From: an uncultured Bacteroidales bacterium
Lineage (GTDB): Bacteria > Bacteroidota > Bacteroidia > Bacteroidales > P3
Length of the DNA stretch: 64,000 nucleotides
Assembly (NCBI GenBank): GCA_944320415.1
Contig: CALUHJ010000004.1
Location: 1-64,000 of the forward strand
Reading direction: 5' to 3'
Shown here: positions 19,269-23,149 of the stretch, piece by piece
How positions within the stretch are numbered: position 1 is the stretch's first letter
How the letters are laid out: every line of letters starts with the position of its first letter
Translations under genes and position numbers: made by a program
The notes under the pieces: generated by a model
What the model saw: only the letters and a program-made list of their open reading frames with translations
The model's database searches: none
What the model was told of the DNA's origin: nothing

Positions 19269-20486
19269 ATGCATGTCGGTAAAGTATTACTATACTTTAT
19301 ATTTCTGCAAACAATCATTACATCATCTTTCGCTCAAAAAAGAGAGGACCGCAATGTTTTCGACAATCTGTCGCGCAGTTTCGAATACAAAACAGTCAAA
19401 CTTAACATATACAACAGCAACTTCCTTGTTAACAACGAATACAGTGGCTTGAAGGTATCAGGTTACACACTGCCCGGATTCAGACTCTCTCCTACCGTTT
19501 CCTATACTCCGAACAAAAAAATAATGATTGAAGGCGGCGTCAGCATACTCCACTATTGGGGAGCGAACAAATATCCCTGCACGGTCTATTCCCACCTGCC
19601 CGACTGGAAAAGTTATCAGTATATGAACGGATTACATCTGGTTCCTTACTTCAGGGCAATATGGCTTATTGACAAAGACATGCTCCTTAGTTTCGGTAAT
19701 ATTTACAACTTCAACTCCCATCTGCTCAACGAAGTATTGTATAACTATGAAAACACATTCAATTCAGACCCTGAACTCGGTGCCCAATTCATAATGGACA
19801 AGGAACATTTTTATATGGATTTGTGGCTCAACTGGCAGAGTTTCGTATTCGACAGGGACATACATCAGGAATCCTTTACGCTTGGTTTTGCATCCGAAAC
19901 AAGGATTCAATCCGCAAATGACAGATTCCGCATAACATTTCCCTTAAACGTCATAATACAACACCTTGGAGGTGAAAATCTTGACATAAGACATGATGTG
20001 CAATCATGGCTTAACGCCTCCATAGGTCTGAAGACAACATACAGATTCAACCCTTACACATCCGTTTCCTTAGGAGGAGAGACGATAGGCTACAAAAAAA
20101 TATCCGGCAACGATATGTTCCCTTTCGACAAAGGCTGGGGCATCTATCCCTACATATCTTTCAAATACAATGGACTTGAAATCAAAGCAGCATATTTTGA
20201 AAGCGAAGACTTCGTTTCCCTGTTGGGAAACCAGCTCTTCTGCAATTTCTCAAACAATACGGAAAGTCTGTTGTTCGACAGAAACAGTCAGATATACGCA
20301 AAAGTATCCTATCACCTCAATATAGTAAACGGATATAACCTTAACCTGATATTCCAGTTGTTCAGACAAAACGAATTGAACGGATACCGCACTGGATACG
20401 GAAGTGTGGAAAGAAAAGGATTCACTTCTTTCACTCTTGGCGTTGTGTTCAACATAAACCCGTCAATCAAGTTAAAGACAATCTAA
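19269..20486 (+). CDS. Outer-membrane barrel-like protein of unknown function
   Basis: A 405-residue protein with a signal peptide (about 1-22, ending SSFAQ) and repeated amphipathic strands rich in Tyr, Phe, Asn and Gly through to a C-terminal FTLGVVFNINP strand. This is the profile of a 14- to 16-strand outer-membrane barrel. I recognise no family. It follows the preceding exported-protein gene by 18 bases and its stop overlaps the stop of the convergent heavy-metal-sensor-like gene by four bases. Confidence 0.75.
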   Translation: MHVGKVLLYFIFLQTIITSSFAQKREDRNVFDNLSRSFEYKTVKLNIYNSNFLVNNEYSGLKVSGYTLPGFRLSPTVSYTPNKKIMIEGGVSILHYWGANKYPCTVYSHLPDWKSYQYMNGLHLVPYFRAIWLIDKDMLLSFGNIYNFNSHLLNEVLYNYENTFNSDPELGAQFIMDKEHFYMDLWLNWQSFVFDRDIHQESFTLGFASETRIQSANDRFRITFPLNVIIQHLGGENLDIRHDVQSWLNASIGLKTTYRFNPYTSVSLGGETIGYKKISGNDMFPFDKGWGIYPYISFKYNGLEIKAAYFESEDFVSLLGNQLFCNFSNNTESLLFDRNSQIYAKVSYHLNIVNGYNLNLIFQLFRQNELNGYRTGYGSVERKGFTSFTLGVVFNINPSIKLKTI

Positions 20487-20974
20487 TTCAAATGAGGATG
20501 CGTACCTCCGTCTTCGGAACGGTGATTACATGTGGGACGACAGATGAAAATCTGTGCAAACAAACTGTCCAGAACAGGTATTTGCGACGGATTCAATATT
20601 GCCTTTATTTCATAATATTGCTCGACAGACAAATGCAGCAGCTCCTTCTGACATGAAACTATGTCCTTTTCTATCTGTGCAATCTTATTCGTATCACTCT
20701 CATTCCGCATCAAGGACCTCATCAGTCTTTCCTGCCTAAGGTGAAGACTGTCGGCAACAAGTATGGCCCTGTTCCTGTATTTGGACTTGATGCCGTCGTA
20801 CAACTGTTTCTGATTCTCATCCAACGATATCATCGAACTGACATAACATCCCTTGTTAGCGGCATTGGAACAAGCGCATGACCCGTCCTCTTGTTTACTC
20901 AAGAGAATAAAAAAATTGACGGCTGTAATCACAACCAGAAAAACTACTATTATAATGAAATGAGATTTCTTCAT
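20483..20974 (-). CDS. Periplasmic heavy-metal-sensor-like (Spy/CnrX fold) protein
   Basis: The 163-residue product has an N-terminal membrane anchor (about 5-24), then a Cys-rich stretch CACSNAANKGCY, then a helical domain (SLDENQKQLYDGIKSKYR ... LRQERLMRSLMRNES ... EKDIVSCQKELLHLSVEQYYEIKAILNPSQIPVLDSLF) that matches the periplasmic sensor family of CnrX and Spy/CpxP. The tail CRPTCNHRSEDGGTHPHLN has two Cys and three His and may bind metal. It starts three bases after the anti-sigma-like gene, suggesting a CnrX-like sensor controlling the sigma factor. Confidence 0.82.
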   Translation of the reverse strand: MKKSHFIIIVVFLVVITAVNFFILLSKQEDGSCACSNAANKGCYVSSMISLDENQKQLYDGIKSKYRNRAILVADSLHLRQERLMRSLMRNESDTNKIAQIEKDIVSCQKELLHLSVEQYYEIKAILNPSQIPVLDSLFAQIFICRPTCNHRSEDGGTHPHLN

Positions 20975-20977
20975 GTC

Positions 20978-21295
20978 CTATTCTCCCATCAATATCTGTT
21001 CCGGATAGTAATCCGAAAGTATGTCAAAATAATTCTCCTGCGCAAACTGTTCAAATGCCTCCGTCTGTTCATCCGCAACAAATCCGTCCTGATTGCCTGA
21101 AACCAAATCCGACAGATTCACTGCAACCGAAAAAAGCAGTACAAGACAGCACGCCAGCAAACATTTGGCAAATCCAGACGGCAAAAACAAAGATTCCCGC
21201 CGTCCAATCTCGGACATTATGTCCGAATACAAAGAAGTATTCGCCCGTCTTTGAATATCCTTTTGAATAAAACCGTCCATGTTTTCCATTTTCAT
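20978..21295 (-). CDS. Anti-sigma-factor-like single-pass membrane protein
   Basis: From the ATG at 21295 (a GTG at 21298 is possible) this is a 105-residue protein with an N-terminal cytoplasmic part, one membrane segment (about 42-62, AKCLLACCLVLLFSVAVNL) and a short acidic periplasmic tail. Position directly between an ECF sigma gene (two-base gap) and a CnrX-like sensor gene makes it the likely anti-sigma factor, as CnrY is in the Cnr system; it has no recognisable zinc anti-sigma motif, so the call rests on context. Confidence 0.65.
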   Translation of the reverse strand: MKMENMDGFIQKDIQRRANTSLYSDIMSEIGRRESLFLPSGFAKCLLACCLVLLFSVAVNLSDLVSGNQDGFVADEQTEAFEQFAQENYFDILSDYYPEQILMGE

Positions 21296-21297
21296 CA

Positions 21298-21852
21298 CTA
21301 AAATATATCCTTATCTATATTGTTCATTCTTTTCTTTATGTTCCCTCTTGCCCTGTGTACCAACACCTCAACCGCACTGACGGAACAATTCATTATGCCG
21401 GCTATTTCCTTCTGAGAAAGTTCATCATACATGAACAGGACAAAAGCCGTCTTCTGTTTTGCAGGCAAAGCATCTATCGCCTTGTGCAGATGATAACCGT
21501 ACTGCTTGTCCAACAAGGACCAGTCCGTCTGTTCAAACGACTGATAATCCAAGGTATCGGTAAAATCCAACGACAGAAACTTCCTTATCTTTCTTCTTCT
21601 TATATGGTTTATTGCCTTGTTGACAGCTATTCTGTATATCCATGTGGACAATTTGGATTCGGCGCGATAAGTCCCTATCGAGGAATATATCTCCACAAAG
21701 ATATCCTGAACCAAATCCTCCGCATCGTGTCTGTTGTGCAAAATGGCATAGCACAAATTCAGTATCTTCATATGATACCTATTGAACAACTCTTCGAAAG
21801 CAGAATTATCCCCTTCCGCTATACGTTTTGCCGCAATTATGTCGCTATCCAT
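21298..21852 (-). CDS. ECF-type RNA polymerase sigma factor
   Basis: From the ATG at 21852 the product has 184 residues with sigma region 2 (AFEELFNRYHMKILNLCYAILHNRHDAEDLVQDIF in parts, about 15-55; STWIYRIAVNKAINHIRR) and region 4 (LPAKQKTAFVLFMYDELSQKEIAGIMNCSVSAVEVLVHRAR in parts, about 125-170). A longer frame to 21903 adds 17 residues with no sigma homology and is rejected. It is second in a four-gene set, 60 bases after the Cys/His-rich gene and directly before the anti-sigma-like gene. Confidence 0.93.
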   Translation of the reverse strand: MDSDIIAAKRIAEGDNSAFEELFNRYHMKILNLCYAILHNRHDAEDLVQDIFVEIYSSIGTYRAESKLSTWIYRIAVNKAINHIRRRKIRKFLSLDFTDTLDYQSFEQTDWSLLDKQYGYHLHKAIDALPAKQKTAFVLFMYDELSQKEIAGIMNCSVSAVEVLVHRARGNIKKRMNNIDKDIF

Positions 21853-21912
21853 TATAAACAAACGGCAGGAACAGACATGTGTCGCCCCTGCCGCAAACTG
21901 CATAAATAAAAA

Positions 21913-22230
21913 CTATTTCTTCGTTTCAACCTTTTTTTGCATCGCAGCCTTGTCTCCGCTATTGTGCTGAGCGCACTTGCCGGTGCATTTGTGAGCCGCC
22001 GTACCCTTGCAGTTCTGTCCGTTGCCTACACATTTTTTACCAGCCTCATTGGCCTTTGCCTTGCAATCGCTCTTACATTTGTGAGCGGCATCCTTGCCAT
22101 GATTCTTGCAATCATTCTTGCACTTGTGTTCCACCTTGGCTTTTTCCTTTTGAGTCTTTACCGGCTCCTGAGCCACTGCAACCGCTCCTGCAAATCCAAC
22201 CGCAAGAAGCAATACCATCAATTTCTTCAT
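21913..22230 (-). CDS. Exported Cys/His/Lys-rich protein, likely metal-binding
   Basis: The 105-residue product has a signal peptide (MKKLMVLLLAVGFAGAVAVAQ) and a small mature domain with eight Cys and five His set in a Lys-rich frame: HKCKNDCK, HKCKSDCK, KKCVGNGQNCK and HKCTGKC. Such spaced Cys pairs could bind soft metals or form disulfides in the periplasm. A TTG at 22239 would add three residues and is rejected. It is first in the run that continues with an ECF sigma factor, an anti-sigma-like protein and a CnrX-like sensor. Confidence 0.8.
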   Translation of the reverse strand: MKKLMVLLLAVGFAGAVAVAQEPVKTQKEKAKVEHKCKNDCKNHGKDAAHKCKSDCKAKANEAGKKCVGNGQNCKGTAAHKCTGKCAQHNSGDKAAMQKKVETKK

Positions 22231-22281
22231 AAAAAACAATTTAAATTGGTTATCATTATGTCAATACTTCTCTTTAGACAA

Positions 22282-22289
22282 CAAAGGTA
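22282..22289 (-). promoter_or_regulatory. -7 box of the Cys/His-rich protein-sigma operon
   Basis: TACCTTTG on the minus strand 51 bases ahead of the ATG at 22230. A TTTG at 22314-22317 is 24 bases away, longer than usual, so this could be a poor housekeeping promoter or overlap an ECF-type one. Confidence 0.5.
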
Positions 22290-22366
22290 GGAATAATCTT
22301 ACACCCGCATATACAAAAAAACACCTTTTTAACATTCATACCACTACAACTGCATTGTAAATATAG

Positions 22367-22408: not shown

Positions 22409-23149
22409 ATGCAGAAAACGATAATCGCATTCATTTCCTTTCTGATAATTTTTCCATTCAAGTCATGGAACCAGAATTATGACGATAATTTCGCAAAACC
22501 GATAGTAAGCGAAGAAGGCAGGTTTACATACTACGAACTGCCTCCTATAAAGACACCGGTAGGTGAACTGATTTTCTTGGACAGAAATCTCGGAGCATTG
22601 TCCGACTATGTCGGCACGAGCGATTCCTGGGGAGACCTCTATCAATGGGGAAGGGCGACGGACGGTCACGAAAAACGCCTGTCCGACACCGTACTTACGC
22701 TTGCCTCCAACTATCAAACCAATCATGACAAGTTCATAGTGGACGAACGAAAGGCCAACGACTGGCTGTCAAACCCCGATGACCATCTGTGGAGCAAGGA
22801 AAACGGGCTGACCAATCCGTGTCCGTGCGGGTACAGGCTGCCTACTGCCGAGGAGTGGAGGGCATTGCTCAGTCTGGGTTACCAGGTAAAGACCTCTCAG
22901 GAAGGATATTATTATCTTGACATCGGAAACGGACAGTTGCTTTTGCCCGCTGCAGGACTCAGAAACGCCTATACGGGCAACTTCCAGCACATGGGAACAC
23001 GCGGATATTACTGGGGAGCGGATGCGGTTTCAAAAGGCACCTCCTCCTGCATAGACTTCAACAAGGACGACATAACAACCAATGTGACAGTCTTGGGTTT
23101 CAGGGCGTTCGGACGCAGCATAAGATGCATCAAGGACAAAGGGCATTGA
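22409..23149 (+). CDS. FISUMP-domain exported protein
   Basis: From the ATG at 22409 (a TTG at 22394 is less likely) the product has 246 residues: a signal peptide (MQKTIIAFISFLIIFPFKSWNQ), then the Fibrobacter succinogenes major paralogous domain with GELIFLDRNLGA, GDLYQWGRATDG, CPCGYRLPTAEEWRALL, LLPAAGLRN, YYWGADA and a final GRSIRCIKD. The function is unknown; such domains are common in surface proteins of gut and rumen Bacteroidota and Fibrobacter. It is divergent from the metal-sensing-like operon and ends at palindrome copy 2. Confidence 0.85.
   Translation: MQKTIIAFISFLIIFPFKSWNQNYDDNFAKPIVSEEGRFTYYELPPIKTPVGELIFLDRNLGALSDYVGTSDSWGDLYQWGRATDGHEKRLSDTVLTLASNYQTNHDKFIVDERKANDWLSNPDDHLWSKENGLTNPCPCGYRLPTAEEWRALLSLGYQVKTSQEGYYYLDIGNGQLLLPAAGLRNAYTGNFQHMGTRGYYWGADAVSKGTSSCIDFNKDDITTNVTVLGFRAFGRSIRCIKDKGH

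Follow-up and report, generated by a model that had tools for sequence, protein, structure and literature searches.

What signal does a Bacteroidales cell read through an operon in which an extracytoplasmic function (ECF) sigma factor is encoded behind a small, cysteine- and histidine-rich exported protein, and what is made in reply? We addressed this question in a 64,000-nt stretch of DNA (hereafter, the window) from an uncultured Bacteroidales bacterium (contig CALUHJ010000004.1, assembly GCA_944320415.1; assembly size 2.0 Mb), whose nearest named record is Candidatus Onthomorpha intestinigallinarum (92% identity at the sensor described below). On the sequence evidence, an ECF sigma factor, a one-helix anti-sigma factor and a sensor with a predicted CnrX fold are co-encoded behind the Cys/His-rich protein, here called the leader, and a conserved ECF-type promoter. 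We favor, with fair but incomplete confidence, a trans-envelope metal-stress circuit in which the sensor would act through the sigma factor on the leader and on a distant operon for a TonB-dependent receptor and an exported protein related to HMA domains (the receptor/HMA operon); the metal, its binding and the induction are what we infer.

The leader and its conserved operon

Open reading frames and their translations place all four genes on the minus strand where a preliminary description had located them. The leader (105 aa; 21913–22230) carries a signal peptide of the MKKLMVLLLAVGFAGAVAVAQ type at about 22230–22171, and its 85-residue mature chain contains the eight Cys and five His previously counted, together with 22 Lys, few aliphatic residues and no aromatic ones. 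The "repeated HKCKxDCK units" attributed to it are a fair yet generous wording, because exactly two copies are exact (HKCKNDCK and HKCKSDCK) and two are degenerate (HKCTGKC and KKCVGNGQNC). All eight Cys are retained in the nearest species. Searches of Pfam and NCBIfam with the leader returned no family above threshold (CopL_fam was sub-threshold, E 0.1), and the protein is small, Cys-rich and free of aromatics, as in the functional class of metallothioneins. Judged by composition, it is probably a metallothionein-like, putative periplasmic metal buffer.

To place the operon among its relatives, 61 genomes were searched and their neighborhoods read, followed by a systematic classification of loci. 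The leader–sigma–anti-sigma–sensor order recurred in 19 of 19 own-family loci, each with a Cys-rich exported leader immediately upstream of the sigma gene, so that the leader stays linked in relatives, the point on which the preliminary description had staked its proposal. Family leaders contain 3–19 Cys and no aromatic residues (18/18 members checked), and the type of repeat varies by genus: HKC/HKCTGNH in g1, CCDKK/CCKK in g10 and g12, HKCSKDAKGAD in g2 and CKKxxKCP in g5. Mature chains in g1 and g2 hold 5–17 His. Relative to the nearest species, the ratio of nonsynonymous to synonymous substitution rates is 0.165 for the leader, 0.085 for the sigma factor, 0.130 for the anti-sigma factor and 0.141 for the sensor; all four genes evolve under purifying selection.

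The sigma factor (184 aa; 21298–21852) matches Pfam Sigma70_r2 (4e-19) and r4_2 (6e-16), confirming its earlier assignment, and its relatives in the PDB include SigW, RpoE and CnrH. The anti-sigma factor (103 aa; 20978–21289) has, as proposed, a single predicted transmembrane helix and is short like CnrY; no Pfam or NCBIfam family was found above threshold, and its AlphaFold2 (AF2) model consists of two long helices (residues 4–31 and 40–84). In the family alignment, an NPF.F motif ahead of the membrane helix and a periplasmic peptide at the C-terminus, F..ENYFDIL..YYP.., are conserved, and the family profile matches the C-terminal, post-zinc-finger part of the order's ZAS anti-sigma factors (96.5%, E 9e-10). 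The N-terminal HxxxCxxC zinc finger (zf-HC2) is absent from own-family proteins, and order relatives with the remainder of the protein in common do carry it. By profile, this is a zinc-finger-less relative of the ZAS anti-sigma factors, and the match to their tail, taken with zf-HC2 in the order relatives, implies that this family either lost the finger or never acquired it. EcfO/Reo was rejected as a relative on account of its different architecture, a five-compartment anti-sigma factor.

Beyond the family, a sensor relative occurs in 76 of 393 genomes of the order, and 74 loci have both sigma factor and sensor. Among the 53 of these outside the family with an unambiguous upstream region, 16 have a Cys-containing leader built of FVDKNGDGVCDN units. 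Sigma/anti-sigma modules with a Spy-like or PF13801 sensor are present in many families of the order, and those with an EF-hand-like Cys leader share with the operon studied here the gene order, the leader slot, the promoter architecture (CGCAAGTTTT-N-GTCTAA, found upstream of many EF-hand-like leaders) and often the terminal sensor Cys; they differ in having leaders of Asp-rich, EF-hand-like units, anti-sigma factors that usually retain zf-HC2, and sigma factors that form a separate clade. By these sequence comparisons, the operon is a family-specific branch of the Bacteroidales sigma/anti-sigma/PF13801-sensor module. The suggestion of a "distinct" response in Bacteroidota was therefore too strong, because modules of this kind are widespread and one of them, CirYZ-Spy, has been published (PMC13114119).

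As a separate observation, many Bacteroidales encode exported proteins of FVDKNGDGVCDN units (EF-hand-like, with Cys) directly 5' of an ECF sigma gene (e.g., L106:106-537 and L104:40-462); these proteins belong to no Pfam or NCBIfam family.

The leader promoter, a hairpin and a second operon

Upstream of the leader gene, at 22274–22303 on the minus strand and reaching beyond the span first given for the operon, lies a candidate ECF-type promoter, TGTAAGATT-N14-TGTCTAA. Boxes reading TGTAAGATT and CGTCTAA occur 27–44 nt upstream of the leader in most family loci, with a spacer that is mostly 13 nt and is 14 nt in the window. The site is the only match in the window, where shuffles predict 0, and none of 63 upstream regions of window open reading frames of at least 150 aa scores as high; the corresponding background in other family loci was 7/160, and all seven proved to be the receptor/HMA operon. 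A simple sigma-70 scan found no promoter at this position. The agreement among leader promoters is partly circular, because the consensus was read from those same upstream regions, and the independent test is a scan of whole genomes, which for the genome studied here was restricted to exact patterns.

In this genome the exact pattern GTAAGNTT-N13/15-GTCTWA has two sites, one at the leader and the other at G000:C16:78831-78858, outside the window, 30 nt 5' of a gene for a TonB-dependent receptor (Pfam TonB barrel, plug and CarbopepD_reg_2), which is followed by a 128-aa exported protein. The motif of this receptor/HMA operon (G000:C16:78831-81555; L197:3332-6056) is conserved across three genera. 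The 128-aa protein alone matches HMA just under the cut-off (E 1.3e-4), with MerP as its best, likewise sub-threshold, NCBIfam match; the profile of its family, with an invariant CC...CC...C pattern, reaches the metal domains of Cu-ATPases at 1e-16 and MerP at 1e-6. Both boxes, with a spacer of 13, stand before the receptor/HMA operon in all 11 genomes that have both operons, 10 of them scoring at least 13/16 and one, G024, weak at 11/16, and these upstream regions were a set not used in defining the boxes. A reversed-pattern control of the scan gave a few matches too, and exact matches in or next to unrelated coding sequence (L180, L183, L184, L186 and L188) were dismissed as chance.

The same promoter has a further target in G024 (L055:3841-9341; G024:C34), where it precedes an orphan second copy of the sensor gene, then a resistance-nodulation-division (RND) gene and then an adaptor gene. 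The 1464-aa RND protein, which is fused to a TolC-like C-terminus, is a member of the CusA/CzcA family (TIGR00914; 1147 bits, cut-off 701). No heavy-metal-efflux RND (HME-RND) genes adjoin the sensor operon in the window or in the family loci read, so that the earlier phrase, a metallothionein-like product "in place of an efflux pump," holds locally; it does not extend to the system as a whole, given that the circuit appears to include another operon at a distant site and, in G024, an RND pump. An RND pump of the genome studied here was also considered as the missing output and rejected, since its three RND proteins all fall well below the CusA/CzcA cut-off and none lies at a motif site. The proposed link to metals gains its support from the other promoter targets, namely the MerP/copper-chaperone-like protein and, in one relative, the HME-RND pump.

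Between the leader and sigma genes, a strong hairpin (21858–21901, minus strand) has a minimum free energy of −23.7 kcal/mol (z −5.0). A strong hairpin occupies the same gap in 16 of 19 family loci (z −3.7 to −6.5; absent in genus g5), with z-scores confirmed on a subset of loci by dinucleotide shuffles, and across the window and 15 relatives the structure is conserved while the sequences are unrelated. It may serve as a leaky terminator or as a guard of the leader mRNA 3' end, either of which would raise the leader over the regulators.

As for the surroundings, a convergent LpxZ-family gene (19269–20486; 306.8 bits against a curated cut-off of 460) overlaps the stop of the sensor gene with its own stop and is retained as a neighbor within the genus, and on the leader side a FISUMP-domain gene (22409–23149) runs away from the leader. 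In genus g12 a further sigma-70-family gene lies immediately 3' of the sensor (L052:3504-4091, L053:4060-4650 and L056:5682-6269).

The sensor and the signal it may read

The sensor (163 aa; 20483–20974) comprises one N-terminal transmembrane helix (residues 3–26) and a helical hairpin, modeled by AF2 from 11 sequences with a predicted local distance difference test score of 75 overall and above 85 in the soluble helices. Foldseek searches of the PDB with this model returned CnrX or NccX at ranks 1–15 throughout, and VIA-align gave Z 10.7–11.5 to CnrX over 100–103 residues, followed by ZraP (9.6) and Spy (8.5), against a background of about 8–9 for unrelated helical hairpins. Helical bundles inflate Z, and the sequence profile therefore also weighs in the assignment: the order-wide sensor profile matches ZraP (1e-6), NccX (2e-5), Spy (6e-5) and CnrX (4e-4). 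The window sensor alone does not reach the Pfam or NCBIfam cut-offs; membership of the Spy/ZraP/LTXXQ superfamily (PF07813/PF13801) comes through its relatives, with Metal_resist (PF13801) above cut-off in order relatives and an LTXXQ match in 4 of 11 own-family sensors (best 2.9e-5). The hooked hairpin of the model and the membrane anchor are those of the CnrX/NccX type.

Cys and His are present at both ends of the soluble part, as had been noted, and the 11 closest sensors all retain Cys43 and Cys145. Cys43 lies just ahead of the first soluble helix, one residue off the position of CnrX His42, and Cys145 just past the last helix. Across the order, Cys145 occurs in 13 of 16 loci with a Cys-rich leader and in 1 of 37 without a leader, a covariation that is supportive in kind, because the raw counts are not independent of relatedness.

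These elements suggest the following circuit. At rest, the cytoplasmic helix of the anti-sigma factor would hold the sigma factor, while its C-terminal periplasmic peptide would touch the sensor. The conserved terminal Cys and His of the sensor would bind a soft metal ion, Cu(I) being the likeliest (with Ag, Zn, Cd and Hg as alternatives), upon which the anti-sigma factor would release the sigma factor to transcribe its own operon. Owing to the hairpin 3' of the leader gene, much more leader than regulator would be made; the leader would enter the periplasm, buffer the metal and thereby also damp the signal. The same sigma factor would turn on the second operon, whose TonB-dependent receptor and exported MerP/copper-chaperone-like protein may provide further metal handling. 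Cu(I) is probably the inducing metal; we prefer it because the second target is MerP/copper-chaperone-like, the G024 pump is of the CusA/CzcA family and the Cys-rich sensor ends suit thiophilic ions.

Several observations weigh against this metal-stress circuit. None of the five CnrX ligands is kept (H42, H46, E63, H119 and M123 align with G42, S46, K63, Q119 and I123 of the sensor), and metal sensing therefore depends on cysteines for which disulfide formation is an alternative; nickel/cobalt sensing through a CnrX-type site, which the resemblance to CnrYXH had brought to mind, was rejected on the same ground. The link between Cys145 and the leader is not significant when relatedness is taken into account, the labels changing five times on the sigma tree and a single independent pair being supported. 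The leader of G030 has three Cys and no His, and genera g2 and g5 retain the leader operon without a close HMA homologue. The negative control for the second-operon promoter is a single genome, G008, which has the receptor/HMA operon without the sensor operon and lacks the boxes there. Finally, the nearest published module, cirYZ-spy of Phocaeicola vulgatus, is strongly induced in colitis, interpreted as envelope stress (PMC13114119).

This last point also favors the strongest alternative, a response to envelope or protein-folding stress in which the Spy-fold sensor would bind unfolded periplasmic proteins and free the anti-sigma factor, the Cys-rich leader being a secondary output. Sensor relatives from the order give LTXXQ/Spy profile matches, and a second Spy-like gene lies downstream in 15 of 37 leaderless loci; the same gene is found in 0 of 16 loci with Cys-rich leaders and never in own-family modules, an HMA metal-domain protein, and not chaperones or proteases, is encoded at the second promoter target, and in fold the sensor comes closer to CnrX/NccX (Z about 11) than to Spy (8.5). 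We regard this explanation as unlikely, though it is the one to take most seriously. Somewhat less probable still is thiol/disulfide sensing of oxidative or reactive sulfur stress, in which Cys43 and Cys145 and the leader Cys would form disulfides and the leader, instead of chelating metal, would serve as a dithiol reductant or redox sink: it is indeed Cys that the sensor conserves and not the His/Glu/Met ligands of CnrX, and oxygen exposure is stressful to the anaerobic gut Bacteroidales, but the abundant His of g1 and g2 leaders would be unneeded for such a role, and HMA and HME-RND proteins at the other targets speak for metal. We give little credence to metal acquisition, in which the circuit would answer scarcity or handle a metallophore, the TonB receptor importing a metal complex and the leader storing or passing on the metal, since CnrX-type circuits in the literature answer excess metal and the same promoter precedes an efflux pump in G024, even though the second operon starts with what is normally an import protein and neither target in the genome studied here includes an efflux pump.

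Within the metal-stress reading, a more specific version is attractive but tentative, and we would sooner doubt than assert it in full: the CnrX-fold sensor may have exchanged its His/Glu/Met nickel site for terminal Cys, giving a Bacteroidales-specific soft-metal response with an exported metallothionein, overproduced through a leaky terminator, as main output and the receptor/metallochaperone operon as distal regulon, the leader repeats (HKC, CCK or EF-hand-like) evolving fast while the circuit is kept. Gut Bacteroidales are exposed to copper and zinc through host nutritional immunity and animal feed, and little is known of metal buffering in their periplasm. The proposed circuit is concrete, with components that can be named (sensor site, promoter and two target operons), and would link the order's widespread, unexplained sigma/anti-sigma/Spy-like modules to metal handling. 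These modules also offer a natural experiment, in which one sensor fold with or without terminal Cys is paired with differing leaders.

Relation to known systems

Bacterial metallothioneins and SilE/PcoE are, like the leader, small, Cys- (or His-) rich and free of aromatics, and neither group matches it as a sequence family. SmtA and MymT are cytoplasmic, whereas the leader carries an export signal; SilE and PcoE are exported and metal-induced, and SilE relies on Met/His, in contrast to the Cys and His repeats of the leader. Bufferins, too, are Cys-rich exported peptides tied to an ECF sigma/anti-sigma pair. They are MNIO-modified, copper-binding ribosomally synthesized and post-translationally modified peptides, often accompanied by an ECF sigma factor (PMC12452194). 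The leader was ruled out as a bufferin, since it has no EGKCG motif and no MNIO enzyme accompanies it: PF05114 gave 0 matches in the genome studied here or in the family members searched, with a positive control in Caulobacter. A striking parallel was noted in another Bacteroidales family (L088:7301-10528; G043:C24), where an ECF sigma factor, a small anti-sigma-like protein, an EGKCG bufferin-like peptide and an MNIO enzyme are encoded together, with the motif GTAAGGTT-N14-GTCTAA 37 nt upstream of the bufferin gene.

In the open-access literature we found no system of an ECF sigma factor with a Cys-rich exported leader in Bacteroidales, although subscription papers may hold one. New here are the leader promoter, the same promoter at the distant TonB receptor/MerP-like operon, and the leader–sigma hairpin. 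CirY-CirZ-Spy of P. vulgatus is an autoregulated operon of ECF sigma factor, anti-sigma factor and Spy-fold protein (PMC13114119). Set beside the present module by description, it has the same Bacteroidales gene order and seems to represent a module of this kind already in print; it is the nearest relative described so far. It differs in its downstream genes, which encode a hydrolase and a LysM/glucosaminidase protein, in having no reported Cys-rich leader and in being read as envelope stress (PMC13114119).

With CnrYXH of Cupriavidus metallidurans and with NccYXH, the operon shares a co-encoded ECF sigma factor, a short, one-helix anti-sigma factor without zinc finger, and a periplasmic sensor with a membrane anchor and the same predicted fold. 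The resemblance noted in the preliminary description is borne out in these respects and fails for sensing of the nickel/cobalt type. The gene order here is sigma–anti-sigma–sensor, the neighboring output gene encodes an exported Cys/His-rich protein in the place of CnrCBA, the sensor has none of the five CnrX metal ligands, and the anti-sigma factor resembles the ZAS tail by profile, its likeness to CnrY lying in its short length and single helix. By analogy, the circuit may function as CnrYXH does, except that the metal site differs and the main product would be a buffer.

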